A DNA stretch of 40,952 nt. It comes from Candidatus Blautia faecavium. Lineage in GTDB: Bacteria > Bacillota > Clostridia > Lachnospirales > Lachnospiraceae. This document shows, piece by piece, positions 3,117 through 38,133 of this stretch. The notes beneath the pieces are model-generated. The model was not told the DNA's origin and did no database searches. It saw only the letters and a list, made by a program, of their open reading frames with translations. The stretch is from NCBI GenBank assembly GCA_019118425.1, contig DWYZ01000201.1, forward strand, positions 1 to 40,952, written 5' to 3'. Every line of letters starts with the position of its first letter. Position 1 is the stretch's first letter. Position numbers and translations under genes: made by a program.

Positions 3117-3200
3117 ATGATTCAACAGGAAATTTGGCTAAAGCGAAGCGAACTTTAAATGCCAAATTGCCCGCTGCTGGTCACTGTGTGACCAGTAACC
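3117..3200. repeat. Dispersed two-hairpin repeat, copy A
   Basis: This copy contains a first palindrome with arms AATTTGG and CCAAATT around an inner AAAG/CTTT stem, then a second hairpin with arms CTGGTCA and TGACCAG. It is nearly the same as 22041-22124 and as the right half at 26964-27015. It lies between the divergent promoters of the TSCPD and MTA nucleosidase genes. Confidence 0.8.
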
Positions 3201-11186: not shown

Positions 11187-13616
11187 ATGGATAATAAGAA
11201 AAAACAAAAAAGGATAAGAGCGAAATTGGTTTGCTGGTTCATGACGGCGATGATGCTGGCCGGATCCGCAGAGGTGTCAGCCGCTTCTTTTTCAGCGGGA
11301 GAGAGTGCCCAGGAGATGTTCAGCTCCGGTGAAGATACAGGCAGTGTTTCCGCACAGACAGATACAGGAAGCGTGGAAGCATTTTCAGATGCTGCTTCTT
11401 CAGACAGTACGGCAGAAGTGCCGGCAGAGGATACGGAAAATGACGCAGGGCTTTCCGATTCGGATACGGAAGTGTTTTCCGCAGAAGAGGAGGAAACTCT
11501 TTTAGGAGCAGGTACGGAGCTTCAGGTGGGAGATCCGGTAAGAGTGACCTTTGCAGATAATTCAGGTAATCCATACGGAAGCGATATGGATATTATAACG
11601 AAAATGGGAGAATCTTTTGTCCTTCCTCAGGTACCTGATTCCCAGGGACTGGAAGGCAGCGGATGGAAGCTGGCCCTTGATACGCCGGATGAGGATGCCA
11701 TTGTGCTGGAAGCCGGAGAAGAATTTTCATTGTCGCCAGATGAAGATATTGACAACTACATCATAGACGGGGTGCTTACTCTTTACGCAGTACAGGGAGA
11801 ACGCCTTTATACGGTGAATTTTTATAATAATAGCGGAACCGCTTTGTTTTCCGGAGGACAGATGAAGGTCACGAAAGGGACGACCATCATCATGCCGGAT
11901 TACCCAAACAGTAAATATGTAAACTTCGGCTGGACCACTACAAAAGGCGGAAGAACGGTAGAATACGAATTCGGTGAGAAATATACAGTAAGTGGAAATA
12001 TGGACTTTTATATCATCCGTTATGCCACTTCCAGCACAGCCACGGTAAACTTTACGAATCCTTCAGGACAGCAGAATTCTACGTTTAAAGCCCTGACTGC
12101 TGTGGTGGTAAAGGGGAATTCCATTAAACTTCCTTCTGTGCCTGCGGTCAGCGGATACACCGCCCTTGGCTGGTCCACCAAAAAAAATGCCACTACGCCT
12201 ATGTACCTGGCAGGAAGAACCCTAACGATAAAAAAAGATACGACTTTATACGCAGTCCGTAAAAAAGTAGCCACCTATACGGTTACCTTTAATAACAACA
12301 GCGGGACAAGTACAAGCTCCGCTTATAAAAAACTGAATCAAAAAGTGGCAAGAAACAGTTACCTTATCCTTCCGGATCTACCTGATGCCACCGGCTATGT
12401 AAATCTTGGCTGGACTACCACGAAAAACGGAAAAAAGCCTCTTTATAAAGAAGGAGCCCGGGTAAAAATCACAAAGAATACGAAATTTTACACTGTGCGC
12501 CGCAAGAGCAATTATTATACGGTTACTTTCTATTTGGGCAATGGAGGAAGCAACAGTACCTATAAGAGCCTGCAGATGAGAGTGGAGGAAGGCACGAAGA
12601 TCACCCTTCCAAGTGTTCCGGACAGGGACGGTTATGTGAACCTTGGCTGGACTACCACGAAAAACGGCACTTCTGTCACCAATCGGGCAGGTACGAAATA
12701 CAGTGTGACGAAAAATACAGCTTTTTATGCTGTCCAGAGCAAGGAGGTAACGGTAACACTGCACTACAATACCGGAGCGATTTACCGGACCGTGCAGGTA
12801 GGGGAGGGAGACAGCCTGGAGCTTCCGGGAATGACGGCGAATCCTCCTTATACAATGATGGGATGGTCCACTGTGCCGAACCAGACCGCATCGCCGCAGT
12901 ACGAGGTGGGAGAGACGATTGAGGTAGACCAGGCTATGCATCTGTATGCAGTCATATTTAATCGTAATTATGAACCGGATATCAGTGCGGATAATCTTTC
13001 TCAGGCGGATCTGCGCAGATATGAACAGATCATCTTTGTGGGAGATTCTAGGACACACCGGATGGAAAGCACTCTGCTTAATCAGTTCGGAACGCTCCTT
13101 ACCCAGGGCGTGACCTTTATCAGTCAGGAAGGCGGCGGTCTTTCATGGCTGCAGTCTACAGGCTATACACAGCTGATGCAGGCGGTTGGAAACAGTTCGT
13201 CCGGGATCCTGGCTAAGCCTACAGTAGTTATCTTTAATTTAGGCGTAAACGATCTGGGCAGCAGCTCCAGTTATATTTCTTACATGAAAGAACTGGGAGA
13301 GGAGCTTGAGGAAAAAGGATGCATCCTTTACTATATGTCCGTAAATCCGGTAAATGACAGGCTGATTCAGGCAAGCGGCAAGCCGTCCAGGCCGGAGGCA
13401 AGCGTAAGAAGCTTTAATGCAGCCATCAAATCCGGACTCTGCAGCAGCGGCCTATACACTTATATTGATACCTACACGTATTTAATGAACACAGGCTATG
13501 GGACGGATGCAAGTACTACAGGCGTAGACAGCGGCATAGACGATGGCCTGCATTATACCACGAAAACATATAAGAGGATTTACCAGTACTGCATGGAATT
13601 GCTGAATTCTGTTTAA
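11187..13616 (+). CDS. Secreted InlB-repeat protein with SGNH/GDSL hydrolase domain
   Basis: The product is 809 residues. A signal peptide (LVCWFMTAMMLAGSAEVSA) is followed by an acidic, Ser/Thr/Asp/Glu-rich linker to about residue 110. Then come about six Listeria-Bacteroides-type B repeats (Flg_new family), recognised by TVTFxxNxG at the start, LPxxPxxxGYVNLGWTTTK in the middle and LYAV at the end, spanning about residues 110-595. The C-terminal 200 residues are an SGNH hydrolase: GDSR with nucleophile Ser621, GVND at 686-689, and the DGLH dyad Asp786/His789. It probably removes acyl or acetyl groups from a glycan or wall polymer outside the cell. The repeats likely serve as spacer or adhesin modules. 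There is no sortase motif. It is monocistronic: terminators lie on both sides and TAAGGAG precedes the start. Confidence 0.88.
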   Translation: MDNKKKQKRIRAKLVCWFMTAMMLAGSAEVSAASFSAGESAQEMFSSGEDTGSVSAQTDTGSVEAFSDAASSDSTAEVPAEDTENDAGLSDSDTEVFSAEEEETLLGAGTELQVGDPVRVTFADNSGNPYGSDMDIITKMGESFVLPQVPDSQGLEGSGWKLALDTPDEDAIVLEAGEEFSLSPDEDIDNYIIDGVLTLYAVQGERLYTVNFYNNSGTALFSGGQMKVTKGTTIIMPDYPNSKYVNFGWTTTKGGRTVEYEFGEKYTVSGNMDFYIIRYATSSTATVNFTNPSGQQNSTFKALTAVVVKGNSIKLPSVPAVSGYTALGWSTKKNATTPMYLAGRTLTIKKDTTLYAVRKKVATYTVTFNNNSGTSTSSAYKKLNQKVARNSYLILPDLPDATGYVNLGWTTTKNGKKPLYKEGARVKITKNTKFYTVRRKSNYYTVTFYLGNGGSNSTYKSLQMRVEEGTKITLPSVPDRDGYVNLGWTTTKNGTSVTNRAGTKYSVTKNTAFYAVQSKEVTVTLHYNTGAIYRTVQVGEGDSLELPGMTANPPYTMMGWSTVPNQTASPQYEVGETIEVDQAMHLYAVIFNRNYEPDISADNLSQADLRRYEQIIFVGDSRTHRMESTLLNQFGTLLTQGVTFISQEGGGLSWLQSTGYTQLMQAVGNSSSGILAKPTVVIFNLGVNDLGSSSSYISYMKELGEELEEKGCILYYMSVNPVNDRLIQASGKPSRPEASVRSFNAAIKSGLCSSGLYTYIDTYTYLMNTGYGTDASTTGVDSGIDDGLHYTTKTYKRIYQYCMELLNSV

Positions 13617-13624
13617 GAAAACAG

Positions 13625-13672
13625 ATAAGAGGCTGCCAGGAAGAATATTATTCCCGGCGGCCTCTTATTTTA
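13625..13672 (+). terminator. Terminator after the SGNH gene
   Basis: The arms ATAAGAGGCTGCC (13625-13637) and GGCGGCCTCTTAT (13656-13668) have one G-T pair and are followed by TTTAT. Confidence 0.8.
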
Positions 13673-13792
13673 TGGTCTTTTATTCCCGCGAGCAACGAGC
13701 CAAGCGGACATGATTACACGTATATTCGGCAGGTTTTTGAAATAACATTTTAAAAACTTTTTCTTATTGAGAAAAAAAGTCAATAAAAGTTA

Positions 13793-13824
13793 TTTACTTC
13801 TAATTAAAGTTAGACTATATTAAC
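13793..13824 (+). promoter_or_regulatory. Promoter and metal-type operator of the Fur-like gene
   Basis: TTTACT at 13793-13798, 17 bases, then TATATT at 13816-13821. The near-palindrome GTTAGACTATATTAAC (13809-13824) covers the -10 box. It matches the TTAG-N6-CTAA operator seen elsewhere in the island with one mismatch (TTAA in the right half-site). Its offset to the -10 box equals that at feoA. Confidence 0.6.
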
Positions 13825-13842
13825 ATATATAGAAATAAAGTT

Positions 13843-13919
13843 ATGAAGTAAATTTCCACATCTATCATTATTGACGCAGCCAACGTACTCCGTGAGTAAA
13901 GTGTGTCAGATAGGAGGAA
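13843..13919 (+). repeat. Leader element shared with the flavodoxin gene, copy 1
   Basis: The core TTTCCACATCTATCATTATTGACGCAGC (split here as TTTCCACATCTATC and ATTATTGACGCAGC) runs from 13853 to 13880 and matches 21408-21434 closely. Both copies continue to a GTCAGA-A/T-AGGAG ribosome-binding-type sequence. This copy carries an additional stretch of about 20 bases with a TACTC/GAGTA hairpin. Confidence 0.6.
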
Positions 13920-13976
13920 TTATACAGGAAAGTAATTTGAAAAGCATTGCCATTGGAAATGGAGGACTGATACATA

Positions 13977-14447
13977 GTGCAGGATGTTTTAAAACAGAGC
14001 AAGGAGCAGGACTCTGTGAACTACAGAAGAACCAAAATGCAGAAGGAGTTAGTGCTGCAGAAGCTGAAAGAACAGGGATGCAGAATTACAAAGCAGCGGG
14101 TAATGCTTCTGGATATTATCCTGGAAGAAGAGTGTTCCTGCTGTAAAGAGATATATTACCGGGCTTCCAGGCTTGACCCGAAAATCGGTTCCGCCACGGT
14201 CTACCGAATGGTAAATACTCTGGAAGAAATTGGAGCGATCAGCAGAAAAAATATGTACAGGATCGTCTGTGATTCCGGATGTGAAACAGAGGAAGCTTGT
14301 ACGATTAAACTGGAAAACGGAACTGTACATCATCTTTCTGCAAAGGCTTGGAATGACGTGATTACAGCAGGGATGAAAGCGGAAGGTTATATTCACGGCG
14401 AAAAGATAAAAAGTGTAGAAGTGCAGTCCTGCGGCTGCAATGGCTGA
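13977..14447 (+). CDS. Fur-family transcriptional regulator
   Basis: The product is 156 residues from a GTG start preceded by GGAGG (13961-13965, 11 bases). An internal ATG at 14037 would give 136 residues and also leaves the domain intact, so the exact start is uncertain. The N-terminal winged helix is typical of Fur: LKEQGCRITKQRVMLLDIIL, then GSATVYRMVNTLEEIGAISR, where the recognition helix carries the family's ATVYR. The C-terminal dimerisation part is short. It has HHLSAK and a terminal CGCNG but lacks the two regular CxxC zinc pairs, so metal specificity cannot be read from sequence. It lies at the head of the iron island, behind the same operator type as feoA, and is convergent with the DtxR-like gene. 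It could be Fur, Zur or PerR-like; Fur-like is the safest call. Confidence 0.85.
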   Translation: MQDVLKQSKEQDSVNYRRTKMQKELVLQKLKEQGCRITKQRVMLLDIILEEECSCCKEIYYRASRLDPKIGSATVYRMVNTLEEIGAISRKNMYRIVCDSGCETEEACTIKLENGTVHHLSAKAWNDVITAGMKAEGYIHGEKIKSVEVQSCGCNG

Positions 14448-14480
14448 ACTTAGCTGTGGATGAGTATGAAACCTACAATT

Positions 14481-14861
14481 TCAGTTTTCGTCAGGTGAAA
14501 AGGGTTTTACATGGTTTCGCAGTGCCTCAAAACTTTGGGAACTGATTACATGCTCTATCCTGCAGGCGTCTTTTGCAGCAGTATCGGCGTCTACTCCCAG
14601 GCGGGTAAGCCAGGAGGTCAGCAATGTGTGGCGCTCATAGATTCGGTCAGCGATTTCCTTTCCGGTTTTGGTCAGCGTAATGTAGCCTTTTGGAGAAACA
14701 AGGATATACCCGCTGTTTTTCAGTTTTTTCATTGCTACGCTGATGCTGGGCTTTTTAAAATTCAGTTCAGCAGCAATGTCAACGGAACGGACAACAGGGA
14801 GCTGCTTGCTGAGAATGAGTATTGTTTCCAGATAATTTTCAGCGGATTCGTTTGTGTGCAT
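14481..14861 (-). CDS. DtxR/MntR-family metal-dependent repressor
   Basis: The product is 126 residues, the length of an MntR-type protein with no SH3 domain. An N-terminal winged helix (ESAENYLETILILSK, VRSVDIAAELNFKKPSISVAMKKLKNSGYI) is followed by the metal-binding dimerisation helices (RHTLLTSWLTRLGVDADTAAKDACRIEHVIS). The Asp/Cys, Glu and His residues in DACRIEHVIS fit metal coordination in this family. Such proteins bind palindromic operators and block transcription when Mn2+ or Fe2+ is bound. The ATG at 14861 has GAGGT 8 bases upstream; the longer frame from 14906 lacks one. It is encoded between the Fur-like gene and feoAB. The TTAG/CTAA half-sites repeated in this region resemble those in DtxR/IdeR boxes, so I infer that it is their regulator. 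Confidence 0.9.
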   Translation of the reverse strand: MHTNESAENYLETILILSKQLPVVRSVDIAAELNFKKPSISVAMKKLKNSGYILVSPKGYITLTKTGKEIADRIYERHTLLTSWLTRLGVDADTAAKDACRIEHVISSQSFEALRNHVKPFSPDEN

Positions 14862-15034
14862 AGAAGTACCTCGTTTTTGTTTTATAATAATACAGGCGGG
14901 ATGCAAAAATAAGGTAAAAAGTTCTTAAGCTGTTTTATCACCAGCACTGTATAAGATAGATCAATTGTCAGGTTTCTATTATAGCATAGTACAAGGGGGA
15001 AAGCGAGCTTTCTGATAAAAATGGGAAAATATTC
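14862..15034. other. Divergent regulatory gap between the DtxR-like gene and feoA
   Basis: The gap is A/T-rich and has several possible -10 boxes for the minus-strand DtxR-like gene (for example the complement of 14977-14982, TATAAT). I find no good TTAG-N6-CTAA copy for that gene, so autoregulation is not supported by the sequence. Confidence 0.35.
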
Positions 15035-15066
15035 TTGACAGATACAGAGTGTTAGCTTATACTAAC
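15035..15066 (+). promoter_or_regulatory. feoA promoter with operator over the -10 box
   Basis: A consensus -35 TTGACA (15035-15040) and TATACT (15058-15063) are separated by 17 bases. The palindrome GTTAGCTTATACTAAC (15051-15066; TTAG-N6-CTAA with outer G/C) overlaps the -10 box. A repressor bound there would block RNA polymerase directly. Confidence 0.8.
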
Positions 15067-15145
15067 AACGAGATGTATAAATGAGAAAAAGACAGTAAAA
15101 GGGATACGGCTTACTGATATAAGAGTAGTCAGGAGGAATGAGGAT

Positions 15146-15358
15146 ATGAATTTACTTGATGCGATAGAAGGCGAAGAATATACCATAAAAAATATTGCCA
15201 CAGACGATGAGGAAATGGAAGCTTTTTTGTTTTCTCTGGGGTGCTACAGTGGTGAGCCCATCACGGTGGTTTCCCATCTGAAAGGCGGCTGTGTGGTTTC
15301 CATTAAGGATGGACGATATAATATTGATACTGATCTAGCGAAAGCTATTTCAATATAA
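15146..15358 (+). CDS. feoA: Ferrous iron transport protein A
   Basis: The product is 70 residues, normal for FeoA, a small cytoplasmic SH3-like beta-barrel protein that works with FeoB in Fe2+ uptake. The pattern EGEEYTIKNIATDDEEMEAFLFSLGCYSGEPITVVSHLKGGCVVSIKDGRYNIDTDLAKAI is typical: a polar start, the LGCYSGEPI turn, and the final DTDLAKAI. AGGAGGAATGAGGAT precedes the ATG. It has its own promoter with an operator over the -10 box and is followed by a terminator, then separate operators before feoB. FeoA may therefore be made without FeoB or in excess of it. Confidence 0.93.
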   Translation: MNLLDAIEGEEYTIKNIATDDEEMEAFLFSLGCYSGEPITVVSHLKGGCVVSIKDGRYNIDTDLAKAISI

Positions 15359-15387
15359 AAATGGTGATTTTTATCGCCGTTTTTTTA
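15359..15387 (+). terminator. Terminator or attenuator between feoA and feoB
   Basis: The arms GGTGAT (15363-15368) and ATCGCC (15373-15378), with a T4 loop and one T-G pair, are followed by seven T's (15380-15386). The upstream A-run can extend pairing with the T-tail. Confidence 0.75.
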
Positions 15388-15394
15388 CCAGCTA

Positions 15395-15434
15395 GAATTA
15401 GTTAAAACTAATTCTAATTAGCGATATCTAATTT
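15395..15434 (+). promoter_or_regulatory. Tandem TTAG-N6-CTAA operators before feoB
   Basis: GAATTAGTTAAAACTAATTC (15395-15414) is a perfect palindrome with 9-bp arms, and AATTAGCGATATCTAATT (15416-15433) follows. The two TTAG half-sites start at 15398 and 15418, exactly 20 bp apart, which places both on one DNA face. A promoter is presumably embedded, but no single -35/-10 pair stands out. Confidence 0.75.
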
Positions 15435-15466
15435 TTATTTGAGGGAAAAGGAGGAACTATTGGATT

Positions 15467-17464
15467 ATGAGGATTGCTTTTGCGGGAAATCCCAACAGCG
15501 GAAAAACAACCATGTATAATGCCCTCACCGGTCGAAACGAACGTGTGGGAAACTGGGCTGGCGTTACGGTTGAAAGAAAGGAAAGTCTGATCAAAAAGAA
15601 TTACTACAGCACAGGAGAGGAACTGATCGCAGTGGATCTTCCCGGTGCATATTCTATGTCGCCTTTCACCTCTGAGGAGAGTATTACAAGCGGCTATGTG
15701 AAAAATGAAAATCCGGATGCTATTATCAATATCGTGGACGCTACGAACTTAAGCCGAAGCCTGTTTTTTACCACACAGCTTCTGGAACTGGGTATTCCGG
15801 TAGTCGTAGCCCTGAATAAGAGCGATGTTACGGAAAAGAAACAGACGAAGATTGATGAAAAGCTTTTGTCTGAGAAGCTTGGCTGTCCGGTTATTAAGAC
15901 AATTTCCACTTCCGCAGGCCATGAAGGACTGAAAGAAGTAGTAAACGCGGCCGCTGCTTTGAAGGGGAAAGGACAGAAGGCCCCGTATGTGCAGGCTGAC
16001 ATTAATCTGAAAGACAAGGCTGCGGTAGAGGCGGCAGACAGAAAGCGCTTTGAATTTGTCAATGGCATTGTAAAACAAGTAGAAAAGCGTAAGGTGTTTA
16101 CAAAGGATAAAAACGTACAGGATAAAATTGACAGTATCATTACACATAAGATCATCGGTATTCCAATCTTTGCGGCGATCATCTTCCTTGTATTTTATAT
16201 ATCACAGACTACTGTGGGTACTTGGATCGCAGACTGGCTGGTTGCCTGGATTGAAACTTTCCAGGGCTGGGTAGGCGGATTGATGGAAAATGCCAATCCT
16301 CTTTTATATGCCCTTTTAGTAGATGGTATCATCGGCGGTGTTGGTGCGGTAGTAGGCTTCCTGCCGTTGGTAATGGTAATGTATTTCCTGATCGCTCTGT
16401 TGGAGGACTGCGGTTATATGGCCCGCGCCACAGTAGTGCTTGACCCGATCTTTAAGCGCGTTGGTCTTTCTGGAAAATCCGTAATTCCTATGGTTATTGG
16501 TACCGGATGCGCGATCCCGGGAGTTATGGCATGCCGTACCATCCGAAATGAAAGAGAACGGAGAACAACGGCTATGCTTACACCATTTATGCCCTGCGGT
16601 GCCAAGATCCCAGTAATCGCACTGTTTGCCGGAGCCTTTTTTGCAGATGCATGGTGGGTATCTGCTACCATGTATCTGGTAGGTATTGTGCTGGTTCTTT
16701 TAGGCGCTCTTCTTGTGAAAAAGATCACAGGACAGAAATACAGAAAGTCTTTCTTTATCATCGAGCTTCCGGAATATAAGATCCCAAGCCTGAAGAGAGC
16801 GCTTGTATCCATGCTGGAGCGTGGAAAAGCATACATCATAAAAGCAGGAACTATCATCCTGGTGTGCAATACAGTGGTACAGATCATGCAGAGCTTTAAC
16901 TGGCAGTTCCAGTTAGTGGAAGAAGGAGCAGAGGGAACCTCTATCCTGGCTTCTGTAGCTCATCCGTTTGCTATTCTGTTTATTCCTCTTGGGTTTGGCG
17001 TATGGCAGCTTGCAGCTGCAGCTATCACCGGATTTATCGCAAAGGAAAACGTAGTTGGTACGCTTGCGGTTGTTTATGGTGTTACCAACCTGATCGACAC
17101 AGATGAGCTGGCGCTGGTTGGAAGCGGAAATGAAGTAGCAGCAATCATGGGTCTTACGAAAGCGGCTGCTCTTGCCTACCTGATGTTCAACCTTTATACA
17201 CCGCCGTGCTTTGCGGCACTGGGAGCTATGAACTCAGAGATGAAGAGCGGAAAATGGCTGTTCGGAGGTATTTGTCTCCAACTTGCCACAGGATATACGG
17301 TTGCCTTCGCGGTATACCAGATCGGCACATTGATCACCACTGGTTCTCTTGGAACAGCTTTTGTTCCGGGACTTATCGCGGTCATTGTATTTGCCCTGAT
17401 CATTCTGTGGAGAATACGTAAATCAGATACGGAATTTGCGGCAGAATATAGTTTGCATACATAA
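15467..17464 (+). CDS. feoB: Ferrous iron transport protein B (GTPase-coupled Fe2+ transporter)
   Basis: The product is 665 residues, within the normal range for FeoB. The N-terminal G domain has G1 GNPNSGKTT at residues 7-15, DLPG at 57-60 (G3) and NKSD at 117-120 (G4). A helical linker precedes a polytopic membrane region from about residue 225. That region contains two Gate-like repeats with conserved cysteines (VIGTGCAIPGVMACRT, NLYTPPCFAALGAM) and an FMPCGAKIPVIA segment. It imports Fe2+ across the cytoplasmic membrane. Strong AAAGGAGG precedes the ATG. Tandem operators lie just upstream, implying repression when metal is plentiful. The Cys-rich FeoB-associated protein is encoded 85 bases downstream. 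Confidence 0.96.
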   Translation: MRIAFAGNPNSGKTTMYNALTGRNERVGNWAGVTVERKESLIKKNYYSTGEELIAVDLPGAYSMSPFTSEESITSGYVKNENPDAIINIVDATNLSRSLFFTTQLLELGIPVVVALNKSDVTEKKQTKIDEKLLSEKLGCPVIKTISTSAGHEGLKEVVNAAAALKGKGQKAPYVQADINLKDKAAVEAADRKRFEFVNGIVKQVEKRKVFTKDKNVQDKIDSIITHKIIGIPIFAAIIFLVFYISQTTVGTWIADWLVAWIETFQGWVGGLMENANPLLYALLVDGIIGGVGAVVGFLPLVMVMYFLIALLEDCGYMARATVVLDPIFKRVGLSGKSVIPMVIGTGCAIPGVMACRTIRNERERRTTAMLTPFMPCGAKIPVIALFAGAFFADAWWVSATMYLVGIVLVLLGALLVKKITGQKYRKSFFIIELPEYKIPSLKRALVSMLERGKAYIIKAGTIILVCNTVVQIMQSFNWQFQLVEEGAEGTSILASVAHPFAILFIPLGFGVWQLAAAAITGFIAKENVVGTLAVVYGVTNLIDTDELALVGSGNEVAAIMGLTKAAALAYLMFNLYTPPCFAALGAMNSEMKSGKWLFGGICLQLATGYTVAFAVYQIGTLITTGSLGTAFVPGLIAVIVFALIILWRIRKSDTEFAAEYSLHT

Positions 17465-17485
17465 TGCGAAAATTGAAATAGGTAA

Positions 17486-17523
17486 CTGGCGGTGGGCAAG
17501 GCGGCTAAGCTTTGCCTGCCGCT
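17486..17523 (+). other. Stem-loop between feoB and the FeoB-associated gene
   Basis: GCGG...GGCAA can pair with TTGCC...CCGC around the centre GGCGGCTAAGC. No T-run follows, so I read it as an RNA-processing or stabilising hairpin rather than a terminator. Confidence 0.4.
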
Positions 17524-17549
17524 TCCTGTTAAAAAAGGAGTTAGAATAA

Positions 17550-17927
17550 ATGGAAAATCTTGTTGCGGCGGTTATTCTCATACTTATAGTGGGAGGAGCG
17601 GCTGCTTATCTGGTCAAGGCTAAAAGAAGCGGAGTGAAATGTGTAGGATGCCCTGCCGGAGGAAGCTGTTCCAGCAGCCGGAAGACGAAAAAGAAAAAAT
17701 TAAGCGGACCGGTACTTGGAAAGAAGACTATAAAAATTACAGGAATGGAATGTGCTCATTGCGCGCAAAGCGTTACAGAAAGCCTGAATCAGATCGAGGG
17801 CATCCGCGCAAAGGTGGATCTCTCGGATGGAAAAGCCGTGGTGTCTTATGACCGGGAGGTAGAAGATGAGGTCTTAAAGGCGGCGGTGGAGAAGGCTGGC
17901 TTTGCCGTTGTTTCTATTACTGCCTGA
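17550..17927 (+). CDS. FeoB-associated Cys-rich membrane protein fused to an HMA domain
   Basis: The product is 125 residues and has two parts. Residues 1-48 match the small FeoB-associated Cys-rich proteins: one N-terminal membrane helix (about residues 4-21), then KCVGCPAGGSC. A basic linker (RKTKKKK) leads to residues 58-125, a heavy-metal-associated (HMA) ferredoxin-like domain with the metal-binding GMECAHCAQSV and the typical ending VEKAGFAVV. FeoB-associated proteins are normally about 45-60 residues without such a domain. I infer a membrane-tethered metal acceptor or chaperone on the cytoplasmic side of FeoB, perhaps handing metal to or from the ATPase encoded downstream. AAAAAAGGAGT precedes the ATG. 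Confidence 0.85.
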   Translation: MENLVAAVILILIVGGAAAYLVKAKRSGVKCVGCPAGGSCSSSRKTKKKKLSGPVLGKKTIKITGMECAHCAQSVTESLNQIEGIRAKVDLSDGKAVVSYDREVEDEVLKAAVEKAGFAVVSITA

Positions 17928-17998
17928 AAAAAAATCTTGTACGGCAGAGGAATAAAGCGGAATTACGGCGTTAAAGAGAATGTTTATCAATAAAGAGA

Positions 17999-18035
17999 GT
18001 TAGAGTTGACTATCTTAAAAAATAGTTGTTATTCT
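17999..18035 (+). promoter_or_regulatory. Promoter and degenerate operator of the ATPase cluster
   Basis: GTTAGAGTTGACTATC (17999-18014) fits TTAG-N6-CTAA with one mismatch at the last base of the core. TTGACT (18006-18011) and TATTCT (18030-18035), 18 bases apart, form a plausible promoter whose -35 box is inside the operator. Confidence 0.45.
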
Positions 18036-18085
18036 GGGTATGCAACCTAGGAGAAAATATTGTGTAAAAAGGAAGTGATGTAGCT

Positions 18086-18166
18086 GTGAAACAACACAGA
18101 TTCTGGGCATGGGCAGCTGTCTTTTGCTTTGTAATGGTATTCTATACAGGCTACAAACATAAATAG
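18086..18166 (+). CDS. 26-residue membrane peptide
   Basis: A GTG-started frame, too short for routine gene calling, encodes a basic N-terminus (VKQHRFWAWAA), a hydrophobic helix (VFCFVMVFYTG) and a basic tail (YKHK). GGAAG lies 10 bases before the GTG. The frame closes with TAG 16 bases before the DUF6110 start, directly after the promoter/operator at 17999. Charge layout and length fit a single-pass membrane microprotein. I recall similar short proteins (HRFWAWAA...YTGYKHK) in Lachnospiraceae but cannot name the family with certainty. Its place as first gene of the ATPase operon suggests a regulatory or stabilising partner of the pump or of FeoB, which is inference. The main alternative is an unexpressed chance frame; the clean topology argues against that. 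Confidence 0.65.
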   Translation: MKQHRFWAWAAVFCFVMVFYTGYKHK

Positions 18167-18182
18167 AACGGAGGTATGACAT

Positions 18183-18482
18183 ATGTTAGATTGCTTTAAA
18201 TGTTTAGATATGAAAAAAACAGGAATTTTTGCCGCAGGGGTGCTGTTCGGCACGGCAGGCATTAAGATTTTGTCCAGCAAAGACGCGAAAAAGGTTTACA
18301 CAAATTGTACGGCAGCAGTTTTACGGGCGAAAGAGTGCGTAATGAAAACCGCAAACACTATTCAGGAGAATGCGGAGGATATTTATGAAGAGGCCAAAGT
18401 CATTAATCAGGAAAGAGCAGCTATGGCGGAAGCGGAAGTATGCGAAGATGAAAATGAAGACGCAGAGGCAAAAGAACAGTGA
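18183..18482 (+). CDS. DUF6110-like small membrane-associated protein
   Basis: The product is 99 residues. A weakly hydrophobic segment, FAAGVLFGTAGIKIL (about residues 16-30), is followed by KDAKKVYTNCTAAVLRAKECVMKTANTIQE and an acidic, helical tail rich in Glu and Ala. This layout (glycine-rich short helix, AKKVYxxxxAxxLRAK, acidic tail) is what I associate with DUF6110, found beside heavy-metal ATPases in Clostridia. GGAGGTATGACAT precedes the ATG. The stop TGA overlaps the GTG start of the ATPase by 4 bases (GTGA), so the two are translationally coupled. The acidic tail could buffer metal ions near the pump, which is speculation. Confidence 0.7.
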   Translation: MLDCFKCLDMKKTGIFAAGVLFGTAGIKILSSKDAKKVYTNCTAAVLRAKECVMKTANTIQENAEDIYEEAKVINQERAAMAEAEVCEDENEDAEAKEQ

Positions 18483-20557
18483 AATTTATCATAAAACATG
18501 AAACAAAAGGACGCATTCGTGTCCATATGGCGCAGAAGACAATGACCTGCCGGCAGGCGGATACACTGCTTTACTATTTGACTAAGGCATCCTGTGTAAC
18601 GAAGGCCAAGGTCTATGACCGGACGGGAGACGCAGTGATCTTTTATTCTGGAGACAGAAAAGAAGTCCTTGCCTTACTTAAAAAGTTTAACTGCGAAAAT
18701 ACAGAGGTACCCTCAGAGGTTCTGGAAAATTCCGGAAGAGAACTAAATGAGGCATATAAAGAAAAACTGATCGGAAAGGTTCTGCTGCGCTATGCAGGAA
18801 AGCTGTTCGTGCCTGCTCCCCTGCGGGCAATATATATCAGCTTGAAATCCATAAAATACCTGTATAAAGGAGTGCGCTGCCTTTGCAAAAGAAAGATAGA
18901 AGTTCCGGTCTTAGATGCCACTGCCATTGCCGTGTCTGTGCTTCGAAATGATGTGGACACTGCCAGCTCGGTCATGTTCCTTTTAGGAATCGGCGAACTT
19001 TTAGAGGAGTGGACTCATAAGAAATCCGTGGATGATCTGGCCCGGACAATGTCCCTGAACGTGAGCAAGGTATGGCTCTTAAGGGAAGATCAGGAGATCC
19101 TCGTACCCGTATCTAAAGTAAAGGCGGGAGATCAGGTTGTTATCCATATGGGCAATGTGATTCCCTTTGACGGGATTGTAACAGAGGGGGAGGCTATGGT
19201 AAACCAGGCCTCCCTTACAGGGGAATCCGTACCTGTACGCAAAGTAAGAGAAAACGCTGTGTACGCAGGAACAGTGGTGGAAGAAGGAGAGCTTACCATT
19301 ACAGTAAAACAAGCAGGAGGTTCCAGCAGATTTGAAAAGATCGTGACTATGATCGAAGAATCGGAAAAGCTGAAATCTGCTCTGGAAAGCAAGGCGGAGC
19401 ATCTGGCGGACAGACTGGTTCCTTATATGCTTGGGGGAACGGCCCTTACTTACCTTGTTACCAGAAATGTCACAAAGGCTCTTTCTGTATTGATGGTGGA
19501 CTTTTCCTGCGCGTTAAAGCTGGCCATGCCGATTTCCGTGCTTTCCGCTATCCGTGAGGCAAGCACTTACCGCATTACGGTAAAAGGCGGAAAATACCTG
19601 GAAGCTGTGGCAGAGGCGGATACCATTGTATTTGATAAAACAGGAACGCTCACCAAAGCAAAACCCACAGTAATGGAGGTGATCTCCTTCAATGAACAGG
19701 ATCCGGATGAACTTTTGCGGATCGCGGCCTGTATGGAGGAACATTTCCCGCATTCCATGGCAAACGCGGTAGTGAATGCGGCAAAAGAAAAGAAGCTTTC
19801 ACATGAAGAAATGCACTCCAAGGTGGAATACGCAGTAGCCCACGGTATTTCTACCACGATTGAAGGGAAAAAGGCGATAATCGGAAGCTATCATTTTGTA
19901 TTTGAAGATGAGAAATGCCGGATTCCAGAGGGAATGGAAGAGAAATTTGAAAACCTTCCTCCAGAGTACTCCAGGCTGTATCTGGCCATTGAGGGAAGCC
20001 TTGCCGCAGTCATCTGCATTGCGGACCCGCTGCGGGAGGAGGCGCCGGATGCACTTCGTATGCTGCGGGAAGCAGGGATCTCTAAAATCGTTATGATGAC
20101 AGGCGACAGCGAACAGACTGCTGCATCTATCGCCGCTAAGGTAGGGGTGGACGAATATTATTCTGAAGTCTTGCCCCAGGACAAGGCCAGGTTCGTGGAA
20201 CAGGAAAAGGCGAAAGGGAAAAAGGTCATAATGGTAGGAGACGGGATCAATGATTCTCCGGCTCTCTCGGCGGCAGACGCAGGCATAGCCATCAGCGACG
20301 GAGCGGAACTTGCCAGGGAAATCGCAGACATCACCATTGGCGCGGAGGAACTGTATCAGATAGCCGTTTTAAAAAGGCTGGGAGACAGTCTGATGAAACG
20401 GATACATAAAAATTATCGTGTTATTGTAGGGTTTAATTCCGCTTTGATATTTTTAGGCGTAGGAGGAATCCTGCAGCCTACTGCATCGGCTTTGCTCCAT
20501 AATACATCTACCCTTGCCATCAGCCTGAAAAGTATGCAGAATCTGCTTCCAAGATAA
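18479..20557 (+). CDS. P1B-type metal ATPase with noncanonical SCALK membrane motif
   Basis: The product is 692 residues, starting at a GTG inside the previous gene's stop. An N-terminal HMA_2-like domain (residues 1-70) lacks CxxC. P-type ATPase landmarks are complete: TGES at 247-250, phosphorylated Asp386 in DKTGT, an HFPHS variant of the P1B histidine region, MTGDSEQTA, and GDGINDS at 587-593. The membrane metal-site motif is DFSCALKLAMP (residues 341-351), in place of the CPC or SPC of copper, zinc/cadmium or cobalt/iron pumps. There are also few predicted membrane helices before the actuator domain. Relatives are annotated as heavy-metal translocating ATPases, and the ion cannot be named from sequence. 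Position after FeoAB behind a related operator points to Fe2+ or Mn2+. Export is likelier than import for this class. Confidence 0.9.
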   Translation: MKFIIKHETKGRIRVHMAQKTMTCRQADTLLYYLTKASCVTKAKVYDRTGDAVIFYSGDRKEVLALLKKFNCENTEVPSEVLENSGRELNEAYKEKLIGKVLLRYAGKLFVPAPLRAIYISLKSIKYLYKGVRCLCKRKIEVPVLDATAIAVSVLRNDVDTASSVMFLLGIGELLEEWTHKKSVDDLARTMSLNVSKVWLLREDQEILVPVSKVKAGDQVVIHMGNVIPFDGIVTEGEAMVNQASLTGESVPVRKVRENAVYAGTVVEEGELTITVKQAGGSSRFEKIVTMIEESEKLKSALESKAEHLADRLVPYMLGGTALTYLVTRNVTKALSVLMVDFSCALKLAMPISVLSAIREASTYRITVKGGKYLEAVAEADTIVFDKTGTLTKAKPTVMEVISFNEQDPDELLRIAACMEEHFPHSMANAVVNAAKEKKLSHEEMHSKVEYAVAHGISTTIEGKKAIIGSYHFVFEDEKCRIPEGMEEKFENLPPEYSRLYLAIEGSLAAVICIADPLREEAPDALRMLREAGISKIVMMTGDSEQTAASIAAKVGVDEYYSEVLPQDKARFVEQEKAKGKKVIMVGDGINDSPALSAADAGIAISDGAELAREIADITIGAEELYQIAVLKRLGDSLMKRIHKNYRVIVGFNSALIFLGVGGILQPTASALLHNTSTLAISLKSMQNLLPR

Positions 20558-20604
20558 AAAACATACGCAGTAAATGTGTGGTTTGTGTATGGCGCGAAAT
20601 TAAA

Positions 20605-20651
20605 AAGGCTTCTAATGAGGAAATATGTCATTAGGAGCCTTGACTATTTTA
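20605..20651 (+). terminator. Terminator after the P-type ATPase
   Basis: The arms AAGGCTTCTAATGA (20605-20618) and TCATTAGGAGCCTT (20628-20641) pair with one G-T and are followed by GACTATTTT. The stem is strong but the T-run is interrupted. Confidence 0.65.
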
Positions 20652-20658
20652 GGAAAGT

Positions 20659-20693
20659 TTGTTATGATTAACTTAAAGTTAGATAATACTAAC
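20659..20693 (+). promoter_or_regulatory. Promoter and operator of the DUF3793 gene
   Basis: GTTAGATAATACTAAC (20678-20693) is a perfect TTAG-N6-CTAA palindrome, identical in its arms to the feoA operator. It overlaps GATAAT (20682-20687), which is 17 bases from TTGTTA (20659-20664). The ATG follows 13 bases after the operator, so the leader is very short. Confidence 0.7.
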
Positions 20694-20706
20694 TCAAGGA
20701 GGAGAT

Positions 20707-21324
20707 ATGACACAGGAAGTATTTGAGATCGTCAAAGGTATGGACTTAAAAAATATCGAGACACAGCTTGCCCTTCAATGTGCGCCCCTGCTTACCGGGA
20801 TAAAAGTATCGAATTTGCTGATCGTCCCTTTAAGCAATGAAAAGATGGTAAGAGGGCTGCTTAGAAAAACAGGAATTTCCTGTTATCGCCTTTTAAATAC
20901 AGGGAAAAAGATCACGTTTCTTCTGTTCCGCAGAAAACAGCTGGAGGCTTTTCTGGAAGATCAGGAAGCCAGGGAAGTACTTAAGGAACAGGGATACGAA
21001 AGATTTACCCTGGGAGGGATCCTGGCTGACTTTCAGAAACGTTATCAGGAATATAAGGACGGTATTCTGCCGTTTCCTCATGAGATGGGGATCCTTTTAG
21101 GGTATCCTATTGAGGACGTCACAGGGTTTATACATAATAAAGGAAAGAATTATTTATATTCCGGGTATTGGAAAGTGTACGGCAATATTCATGAGAAATT
21201 AGATTTGTTCCAGCGCTACCAGAAAGCTAAAGAGACTTTGATACAGCTTCTTGCTTCCGGGTTCAGCATGGAGTCGATCATCGAAAGTTATGGAAAAAAT
21301 GAGCTGCAAAATGCAGCTGTCTAG
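20707..21324 (+). CDS. DUF3793-family protein
   Basis: The product is 205 residues with no signal peptide or membrane segment. LALQCAPLLTGIKVSNLL near the start, FPHEMGILLGYPIEDVTGFI in the middle and KNYLYSGYWKVY late match what I recall of DUF3793, a family found in anaerobic Firmicutes beside iron transport and flavodoxin genes. The biochemical role is unknown. AAGGAGGAG precedes the ATG. A perfect TTAG-N6-CTAA operator overlaps its promoter, placing it in the same putative metal regulon as feoA. The flavodoxin gene follows 133 bases later on the same strand, and no terminator is evident between them. Confidence 0.85.
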   Translation: MTQEVFEIVKGMDLKNIETQLALQCAPLLTGIKVSNLLIVPLSNEKMVRGLLRKTGISCYRLLNTGKKITFLLFRRKQLEAFLEDQEAREVLKEQGYERFTLGGILADFQKRYQEYKDGILPFPHEMGILLGYPIEDVTGFIHNKGKNYLYSGYWKVYGNIHEKLDLFQRYQKAKETLIQLLASGFSMESIIESYGKNELQNAAV

Positions 21325-21334
21325 AGAAGGAAAA

Positions 21335-21353
21335 TTTAGAAGTAAACTTCTGA
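21335..21353 (+). promoter_or_regulatory. Small palindrome upstream of the flavodoxin gene
   Basis: TTTAGAAGTAAACTTCTGAA includes the perfect arms AGAAGT/ACTTCT around AA. It does not match the TTAG-N6-CTAA form. It may be a separate operator or an intercistronic hairpin. Confidence 0.3.
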
Positions 21354-21393
21354 ATTTACTATTATAAAAACAGTACACTAGCGAGGAGGAAAA

Positions 21394-21453
21394 GTGTGAA
21401 AGAAAACTTTCACATCTGCCATTATTGACTCAGCAAGTGCGTCAGAAAGGAGA
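21394..21453 (+). repeat. Leader element shared with the Fur-like gene, copy 2
   Basis: The core TTTCACATCTGCC plus ATTATTGACTCAGC (21408-21434) matches 13853-13880 with few changes. It ends in GTCAGAAAGGAG, the ribosome binding site of the flavodoxin gene. TGACTCA and TGCGTCA can form a short hairpin directly before that site. Confidence 0.6.
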
Positions 21454-21457
21454 AAAC

Positions 21458-21889
21458 ATGAACAAGATCACTGTAGTATATTGGTCACAGTCCGGAAACA
21501 CAGAGGCAATGGCCGAAGCCATTGGCAAAGGGATTGAGCAGGGCGGAAAAGAAGCAGAGGTAGTTGTGGTAGGCGAGGCTTCCATCGACAGCCTGAAGGA
21601 AGCGGATGTTTTCGCTTTAGGGTGCCCGGCTATGGGGGATGAGGTCCTGGAGGAAGATGAGATGGAACCCTTTGTAGCTCAGGTGGAAGGCTTTGCTTCA
21701 GGTAAGAATATCGCGCTGTTCGGATCCTATGGATGGGGTGATGGACAGTGGATGAGAGAATGGGTGGAACGCATGACAAATGCAGGCGCCAAAGTAGTAA
21801 ATGGAGAAGGGCTTATGTGCCAGGAGGAACCAGATGAGGATACCATCCAAAGCTGTATCGATCTGGGAAAACAGCTGGCTTCCATGTGA
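21458..21889 (+). CDS. Flavodoxin
   Basis: The product is 143 residues, a short-chain clostridial-type flavodoxin, a cytoplasmic FMN electron carrier. The FMN phosphate loop is WSQSGNTEAMA (residues 8-18). The isoalloxazine-flanking loops are near GCPAMGDE and GSYGWGDGQWM. Flavodoxins commonly replace ferredoxin when iron is short, which fits its place at the end of an iron-uptake island. The start at 21458 is set by AGAAAGGAG, 5-8 bases upstream; the frame extends upstream but without a better site. It has a leader element shared with the Fur-like regulator gene and ends at a strong terminator. Confidence 0.93.
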   Translation: MNKITVVYWSQSGNTEAMAEAIGKGIEQGGKEAEVVVVGEASIDSLKEADVFALGCPAMGDEVLEEDEMEPFVAQVEGFASGKNIALFGSYGWGDGQWMREWVERMTNAGAKVVNGEGLMCQEEPDEDTIQSCIDLGKQLASM

Positions 21890-21990: not shown

Positions 21991-22124
21991 GTTACATGTC
22001 ACACCCGAACCATGAATTTGTTGCATGGTTACGGGCCAGCATGATTCAACATGCAATTTGGCTAAAGCGAAGTGAACTTTAAATACCAAATTGCCAGTTG
22101 CTGGTCATCGTGTGACCAGTAACA
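21991..22124. repeat. Dispersed repeat, copy B (both modules)
   Basis: Module 1 (21991-22040, CACCCGAACCATGAA...GCATGGTTACGGGC) also occurs at 27595-27650. Module 2 (22041-22124) is the two-hairpin element also at 3117-3200, with perfect arms CAATTTGG/CCAAATTG and CTGGTCA/TGACCAG. This is the most complete copy in the window. Confidence 0.85.
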
Positions 22125-37419: not shown

Positions 37420-38133
37420 TTATAAATAGGGGGTACCGGGAATATCCGGGTAACTTCCCATCCCGATCAAAAGTTCAAGACCAATCTGCCTTGCGCTTAA
37501 AACCGCTTCCTTTACTGCACTGGCATCTCCTGAAATGGCAAGGATAACCTCATTGGAATGACTGGTTCCAAGACTAGGGGTCATATAGCAGACAATTTTT
37601 ACTGCAGAAGCTTTTACTGCAGTATCTGCCATTACAAGGCCGATGGCGGCGGGAGAACCGGCCATAAACCCAAAGGCTTCATTGGAAACGGCTCCAAAAC
37701 CTTTACAAAGAGCCGGACCGGCGCTGGCGGAAAAAGCAAATTCCAAATGCCCGGACTCACTGATATACAGCTCTCCAGCGTATTTATTAGTCAATTCTAA
37801 AGCAAGTTCGACTGCATGACGTACATCAGATATATCGTTTCCTCCGATTACCATATAATTTCCATGTCCGCCCCACCCTTTAGTGTCCCTGGGAAATTCA
37901 ATGGAAAGGATTTCTGTATTGGTAGCCTTAATAGCATCATCTACAGCGGTAATCTGCCCGGCTGCGCCGGTTCTGGAGCTGAAAAGCCCCAATGCATGGT
38001 ATTTAGTTCCAATATTCATTTCCTTTAATAAGGCATCGTCAATTCCAGAAATAACAAGTCCGATGGTATCTAAAACGGCGGTGCCTACAAATTCTGTCCG
38101 TGTACAGTGGGTACTGATGCTGTGTACATCCAT
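37420..38133 (-). CDS. PduB-like tandem-BMC microcompartment shell protein
   Basis: The product is 237 residues with two BMC domains (about residues 12-115 and 122-225), the plan of trimeric BMC-T shell proteins. FVGTAVLDTIGLVISGIDDALL, KATNTEILSIEFPRDTKGWGGHGNYMVIGG, SAVKIVCYMTPSLGTSHSNEVILAISGDASAVKEAVLSARQIG and the ending GSYPDIPGTPYL closely follow PduB as I know it. Such shells enclose diol or ethanolamine enzymes. It lacks the longer N-terminal extension of full PduB, resembling the PduB' short form. No other microcompartment shell, enzyme or regulator gene is in the window. TAAAGGAGACATTCTC precedes the ATG, and several palindromes lie upstream. Confidence 0.92.
   Translation of the reverse strand: MDVHSISTHCTRTEFVGTAVLDTIGLVISGIDDALLKEMNIGTKYHALGLFSSRTGAAGQITAVDDAIKATNTEILSIEFPRDTKGWGGHGNYMVIGGNDISDVRHAVELALELTNKYAGELYISESGHLEFAFSASAGPALCKGFGAVSNEAFGFMAGSPAAIGLVMADTAVKASAVKIVCYMTPSLGTSHSNEVILAISGDASAVKEAVLSARQIGLELLIGMGSYPDIPGTPYL

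Follow-up and report, generated by a model that had tools for sequence, protein, structure and literature searches.

A GTTAG-N6-CTAAC operator marks a probably iron-responsive regulon in Lachnospiraceae whose most likely reader is a short DtxR-family protein

In Candidatus Blautia faecavium (Lachnospiraceae), the same palindrome recurs ahead of the ferrous iron uptake genes feoA and feoB and of several neighbouring genes, and the question raised by this locus is whether these repeats mark a single metal-responsive regulon and which protein reads them. The stretch analysed here, called the window, is the whole of contig DWYZ01000201.1 (40,952 nucleotides; assembly GCA_019118425.1), which corresponds to contig C102 in a draft assembly of 3.5 Mb that comprises 318 contigs and is 91.7% complete. 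The regulon is real and widespread, it is probably iron-responsive and it is most likely read by a short protein of the DtxR family. Our preferred reading, to which we give a probability of roughly 0.8, is that this protein, lacking an SH3-like domain and having a DtxR-type cysteine site, keeps these promoters repressed under iron-replete conditions, and that the Fur-like protein encoded in the same cluster is a member of the regulon.

The original prediction had placed six TTAG-N6-CTAA sites between positions 13809 and 20693, and all six are present there, four of them as exact cores and two as matches to the longer GTTAG-N6-CTAAC with one mismatch. The exact core was found five times in the window against 0.64 expected, a count reached in 0 of 100 shuffles; the fifth copy (37787-37800), inside an open reading frame (ORF) of the minus strand (37420-38133), is probably due to chance. 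Across the genome, the exact 16-mer GTTAG-N6-CTAAC occurs 11 times and its reversed pattern, used as the control, 0 times, and in a sample of 200 Lachnospiraceae genomes the counts are 1234 and 359, with an excess over control in 160 of the 200. The operators are 6-bp inverted repeats with a 6-bp spacer (305 distinct RTTAG-N6-CTAAY matches over all loci, chance ones included), and A or G precedes GTTAG in 76% of these matches. The features of the cluster, in map order, are the following.

13809-13824: one-mismatch operator GTTAGACTATATTAAC, spanning TATATT, the likely -10 of the Fur-like gene
13977-14447, plus strand: Fur-like protein, Pfam FUR winged helix only, with a CxxC ahead of KE and a non-canonical C-terminal part
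14481-14861, minus strand: short DtxR-family regulator (dtxR-like gene), 126 amino acids from ATG, without SH3 domain, PF01325 and PF02742 above cut-off, divergent from feoA
15035-15063, plus strand: likely feoA promoter TTGACA-N17-TATACT, its -10 inside the operator
15051-15066: operator GTTAGCTTATACTAAC, exact core, between dtxR and feoA
15146-15358, plus strand: feoA (PF04023)
15397-15412: operator ATTAGTTAAAACTAAT, exact core, first of a pair between feoA and feoB
15417-15432: operator ATTAGCGATATCTAAT, exact core, second of the pair, 20 bp past ATTAGTTAAAACTAAT
15467-17464, plus strand: feoB (TIGR00437, 467 bits)
17550-17927, plus strand: HMA protein, whose N-terminus resembles the FeoB-associated Cys-rich family (22.1 bits, short of the 27-bit cut-off) and is fused to an HMA metal-binding domain
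17999-18014: one-mismatch operator GTTAGAGTTGACTATC, spanning TTGACT, the likely -35 of the peptide-DUF6110-ATPase operon
18086-18166, plus strand: 26-residue membrane-type peptide VKQHRFWAWAAVFCFVMVFYTGYKHK
18183-18482, plus strand: DUF6110 protein (PF19605, 135 bits)
18479-20557, plus strand: heavy-metal P-type ATPase (TIGR01525, 489.2 bits)
20678-20693: operator GTTAGATAATACTAAC, exact core, directly past a likely TTGACT-N17-TATGAT promoter
20707-21324, plus strand: DUF3793 protein (PF12672, 186.2 bits)
21458-21889, plus strand: short-chain flavodoxin (TIGR01753, 151.1 bits), downstream of DUF3793

Giving no motif in advance, we tallied all 4-letter dyads separated by spacers of 0-15 over the 450 bp that precede the dtxR orthologue in each of 61 genomes (the window and 60 relatives). 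The top dyad was TTAG with a spacer of 6, present in 35 of the 61 regions against 0.6 expected, and it came first again among 80 named loci (39/80 against 1.0 expected; the two sets overlap partly in species), the closest of the named dtxR loci being mostly from Mediterraneibacter, plus [Ruminococcus] torques and a Dorea (72-78% identity). Gene by gene, with at most one mismatch in the 350 bp upstream and the expectation taken from shuffles, a site precedes feoA in 18 of 20 relatives (0.0 expected), DUF3793 in 9 of 14 (0.2 expected) and DUF6110 in 10 of 18 (0.0 expected; none exact). Only 4 of 37 relatives have a site ahead of the Fur-like gene (0.4 expected), which in three of these four (L061, L090, L202) is the divergent gene nearest to dtxR. 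Ten near loci without an exact site were read, and the best feoA-proximal match was GTTAG-N6-CTATC in all ten; the three printed in full keep the TTGACA-N17-TAAACT register and carry a RTTAG-N6-CTAAT site between feoA and feoB. The conservation of upstream sites across relatives supports the single regulon that had been proposed for feoAB, the Fur-like gene, the ATPase cluster, DUF6110, DUF3793 and the peptide. Flavodoxin also lies downstream of DUF3793, on the same strand, in many relatives having DUF3793 in the fetched stretch.

The 26-residue peptide has a match at E <= 0.1 in 54 of the 200 family genomes (this one included), the weaker of which are probably chance. All 30 best loci (L272-L301, the present one among them) keep the length of 26 residues from the aligned start, which is M in 23, V in five and L in two, and K2, H4, F6, A8, T21 and G22 are invariant within a FWAW...TGYKH pattern. 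DUF6110 follows at no more than 400 bp in 27 of the 30, where the P-type ATPase is present as well, and the 300 bp ahead of the peptide contain a site with at most one mismatch in 15, the present locus again included. Most relatives with a one-mismatch site have a -35-like TTGACT inside the operator, in GTTAG-xxTTGACTA-xC forms. The best solved chains for the ATPase are copper pumps, followed by cadmium and zinc pumps, and neither the NCBIfam profiles nor the solved-chain comparison distinguishes its metal.

The position of the sites relative to promoters suggests how they would act. The palindrome had been said to have the same offset to the -10 box in the Fur-like and feoA promoters, and TATATT and TATACT do both begin 7 bases into the site. 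Both strands of 262 distinct sites, taken from loci weighted towards dtxR-feoA regions and sites, were checked for a neighbouring strong promoter of sigma-70-like type, and 112 site-strand cases had one; the -10 begins exactly 7 bases into the operator in 60 of them (the motif fixes the final letter of a -10 at this offset, a small bias) and 13 to 16 bases ahead of the operator in 28. Random positions, read on one strand only, gave a strong promoter at 19 of 786, without a preferred offset. Such an overlap of operator and promoter is the arrangement of a repressor keeping polymerase away, and repression is what we would predict from it.

As to the protein that reads the sites, a dtxR-like match (E <= 0.001) is present in 195 of the 200 family genomes. 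The 102 genomes with dtxR and without a Fur-like match contain 573 sites against 150 control matches, and the five without a dtxR match, a small group, contain 7 against 7. In 233 Clostridia genomes outside the family, grouped by dtxR match, sites against controls number 455 and 220 where the match is strong (E about 1e-38 or better; n = 118), 70 and 84 where it is middling (n = 33), 22 and 58 where it is weak (n = 32) and 37 and 92 where there is none (n = 50); in some of these other families (G387, G273, G353 and G221) listed sites lie less than 1 kb from the dtxR gene. It is the DtxR-like protein, and not its Fur-like neighbour, that probably reads the sites, because genomes with dtxR and without a Fur-like match are still enriched and because the site excess outside the family tracks the dtxR orthologue.

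The same counts led us to reject the Fur-like protein of the cluster as reader, an assignment that we consider very unlikely although its gene belongs to the regulon and although genomes with a strong Fur-like match have more sites on average (7.74) than those with none (5.62), a surplus equally expected if the Fur-like gene marks genomes with more iron operons. Its Pfam match (PF01475, 43.5 bits, cut-off 23.1) covers only profile positions 1-64 of 121, the DNA-binding half, and leaves the dimerisation and metal-binding half (positions 65-121) unmatched. A CxxCK[ED]-type motif is found in 33 of 40 entries for its relatives (some species repeated, two entries unreadable), whose tails are unlike Fur or almost missing, some ending soon past the winged helix, and the gene lies downstream of feoB in many relatives (among loci L046-L105 and L150-L229). 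FeoC, from the feoABC operons of gamma-proteobacteria, is a small cysteine-bearing winged-helix protein encoded in the feo operon; the Fur-like protein is likewise encoded there in many relatives, but it belongs to the Fur family, its CxxC is placed elsewhere and a metal cluster is not shown for it. The Fur-like protein is perhaps a co-regulated accessory comparable to FeoC. The genome, at 91.7% completeness, has one other Fur-family match, beside rubrerythrin-like genes, from which neighbours we infer a PerR-like protein.

The DtxR-like protein has both Pfam domains of the family above cut-off (Fe_dep_repress winged helix, 45.5 bits against 26; Fe_dep_repr_C, 56 bits against 27) and ends after the second, the third, SH3-like (FeoA-type) domain being absent. 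The DtxR and IdeR proteins of Actinobacteria use TTAG-type half-sites and have a cysteine in the metal site; the conserved word here is GTTAG-N6-CTAAC and not their 19-bp two-dimer operator, a form that was itself not scanned for. MntR binds its metal through positions 8, 11, 77, 99, 102 and 103, and in this numbering Glu11, His77, Glu102 and His103 are found in 61 of 61 orthologues. Position 99, Glu in MntR, is Cys in all 61, which we take to be the equivalent of the iron ligand C102 of DtxR, since DtxR and IdeR have Cys there; this residue fits iron as the predicted metal.

The same protein could also read the sites while sensing Mn2+ first, in the manner of MntR, with the iron genes as secondary targets. 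It shares the two-domain length of MntR of Bacillus subtilis and E. coli, its closest solved structures are MntR proteins, and so are its best NCBIfam matches, though these remain below the MntR cut-offs (NF008273, 86.8 of 153 bits; NF003025, 71.9 of 138 bits); SloR, a DtxR-family protein of Streptococcus mutans that has a third domain and shares the 6-6-6 operator layout, is Mn-dependent. By contrast, Cys replaces Glu99 of MntR, Asn mostly replaces Asp8, and the targets are of the iron type: feoAB, FecCD-type transport and flavodoxin, the kind of set that is under Fur in Clostridioides difficile. No Mn transporter was noticed beside a site, though none was searched for, and we consider Mn2+ as the first signal to be rather improbable, the short DtxR-family protein acting on iron remaining our preferred explanation.

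The regulon extends beyond the window. Two of the 11 exact sites of the genome are those ahead of feoA and DUF3793. The others lie ahead of a DUF2325 gene (C71), between a DUF454-ABC transporter set and a cyclase gene (two sites, C78), ahead of Trep_Strep membrane proteins (C125 and C238) and of a protein judged by eye to be Trep_Strep-like (C255), within an ABC/ECF-like gene set (C92) and ahead of a FecCD permease operon that also encodes a Peripla_BP_2 binding protein (two sites, C308); those of C125 and C92 fall inside the ends of ORFs, which we read as overcalled. An ECF-type heme transporter is known in Staphylococcus lugdunensis (PMC7299338, in extract). In two relatives picked for their high counts (19 and 18 exact sites, zero control matches), 30 of the 37 sites are outside every ORF of at least 50 amino acids and 7 are inside, and the adjoining genes include, by eye, feoA/feoB and DUF3793. 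Of ten site-adjacent genes that were scanned, three encode methyltransferases (two of them LCM-type), two encode BAAT_C hydrolases and one each an ATC_hydrolase, an ABC ATPase and an AraC regulator; the remaining two gave no match. In genome G148 (L238, L249, L246, L250, L240), exact operators are immediately followed by genes for LCM-type methyltransferases, BAAT_C hydrolases and an ATC_hydrolase, enzymes that possibly serve siderophore processing or metal-ligand chemistry. The highest exact-site count among the 200 family genomes is 43, against 2 for the control (G133). PADLOC gave zero matches for DUF3793 and DUF6110. Elsewhere in the window, an 83-nt dispersed repeat (3117-3199 and 22041-22123, copies 90% identical) has no visible tie to the regulon.

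Several observations weigh against our reading. The looser forms of the motif show no excess: in the window, 16-mers with up to two mismatches number 13 against 11.57 expected, and across the genome the bare core TTAG-N6-CTAA occurs 29 times against 56 for the reversed pattern and the 16-mer with up to one mismatch 28 times against 47. As neither is enriched, the bare core and the mismatched 16-mer are poor scanners. The original prediction had named a similar density of the motif at random places as evidence against it, which is what we found for the loose forms and not for the exact 16-mer; the signal sits in that 16-mer, its clustering and its conservation. Loose forms no commoner than chance would suit palindromes that are accidental or form RNA hairpins, an explanation contradicted by the exact-motif counts, the conservation and the promoter register, and one that we hold to be extremely improbable; sites over a -10 are mostly upstream of the RNA, and a riboswitch or other known RNA at the sites was rejected on an Rfam scan of 13500-21500, which returned zero families at gathering score.

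Further points on the same side concern the genomes and the protein. Sites fall below control in 22 of the 200 family genomes, many of which have few sites. Among genomes without a dtxR match, G165 has two exact sites ahead of DUF3793-like and flavodoxin-like genes and G124 one ahead of an ABC gene (all by eye), where an overlooked dtxR gene or another reader is possible. The exact core is missing from 26 of the 61 dtxR upstream regions, mostly those of solitary dtxR genes, and autoregulation of dtxR as a common rule was rejected on this count. The Asp8 ligand of MntR is replaced by Asn in 58 of the 61 orthologues and kept in three. It is not obvious why the ATPase would be switched on by iron starvation. 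Finally, the genome encodes three further DtxR-family proteins, two of them beside Trep_Strep-like or ABC genes.

These paralogues might share the word, the protein of the window serving feo and DUF3793 and those at the Trep_Strep/ABC clusters serving the latter, an arrangement compatible with our main explanation. It is favoured by the four DtxR-family matches and by recognition-helix letters that differ among the proteins (SKPSVCHAV vs KKPSISVAM); on the other side, G157, with one dtxR match at E <= 0.001, has 18 exact sites against 0 control matches, and one protein may serve a large regulon. We regard such a division as possible, if somewhat unlikely. Individual sites of the genome may have different readers, some of them perhaps the paralogues. 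Two near-identical DtxR paralogues (L270 on C125 and L271 on C124) adjoin Trep_Strep-like or ABC transporter genes, which suggests that these loci carry their own regulator.

Under our preferred explanation, the short two-domain DtxR-family protein would be the iron sensor of Candidatus Blautia faecavium and of most Lachnospiraceae. When iron is plentiful, its Fe2+-loaded dimer would bind the 16-18 bp palindrome (R)GTTAG-N6-CTAAC(Y) and so block RNA polymerase. The block would fall on the -10 of feoA and of the Fur-like gene, on the -35 of the peptide-DUF6110-ATPase operon and immediately downstream of the -10 for DUF3793-flavodoxin. Falling iron would release the protein, allowing synthesis of FeoAB, of siderophore-type and ECF/ABC importers, of the unnamed proteins and of flavodoxin, which can replace ferredoxin without iron. 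A wider, speculative reading, which we think somewhat doubtful, is that iron control in Lachnospiraceae and other Clostridia moved from Fur to a short DtxR with its own word, that the leftover Fur winged helix became a CxxC-bearing, FeoC-like feo accessory, and that the peptide, DUF6110 and the P-type ATPase form a three-part metal pump active only at low iron, for example expelling competing metals that enter via Feo.

A system of this kind, a DtxR-family repressor with a 6-6-6 operator, is known from SloR, and an extract of the literature on that protein (PMC12096823) describes such operators. According to this source, the likeness extends to the inverted repeat, the multiple sites per promoter and the overlap with -10 and -35, the dimer being predicted here; by contrast, SloR is a 25 kDa, Mn-dependent protein, half-sites of the AATTAA type make up its elements where (A/G)GTTAG is found here, and the DtxR-like protein has 126 amino acids. 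Actinobacterial DtxR and IdeR also control iron genes, as is predicted here, but typically through a 19-bp site for two dimers, IdeR being able to use half sites as well, whereas the present operator is one palindrome whose arms are 6 bp apart and the protein lacks the SH3-like domain (PMC8464063, in part). The Fur regulons of C. difficile and C. acetobutylicum similarly comprise feo, siderophore-type ABC transport and flavodoxin, but with Fur and a Fur box where the word and the likely regulator are here of DtxR type (extract of PMC6311696). Other lineages use other readers, since in lactic acid bacteria feoAB is predicted to be under PerR (PMC3616900, in part).

In the open-licence literature searched, judged by titles and the starts of abstracts, we found no iron regulon of this kind in Lachnospiraceae, and DUF3793 in one unrelated paper only; the 20 best of 2,239 matches to a broad search on gut genera were all about microbiota and gut health. 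Within that literature the word, the regulator subtype, its family-wide use instead of Fur and several of the members seem to be new. Lachnospiraceae are among the commonest gut bacteria, and the regulon supplies for them an operator, a likely regulator and a set of candidate iron genes: DUF3793, DUF6110, DUF2325, DUF454-ABC, the Trep_Strep transporters, the LCM-type methyltransferases, the BAAT_C hydrolases and the 26-residue peptide. It predicts that these bacteria would answer iron through a DtxR-type protein, unlike C. difficile, which shares the gut with them and is governed by Fur (PMC6311696, in extract).

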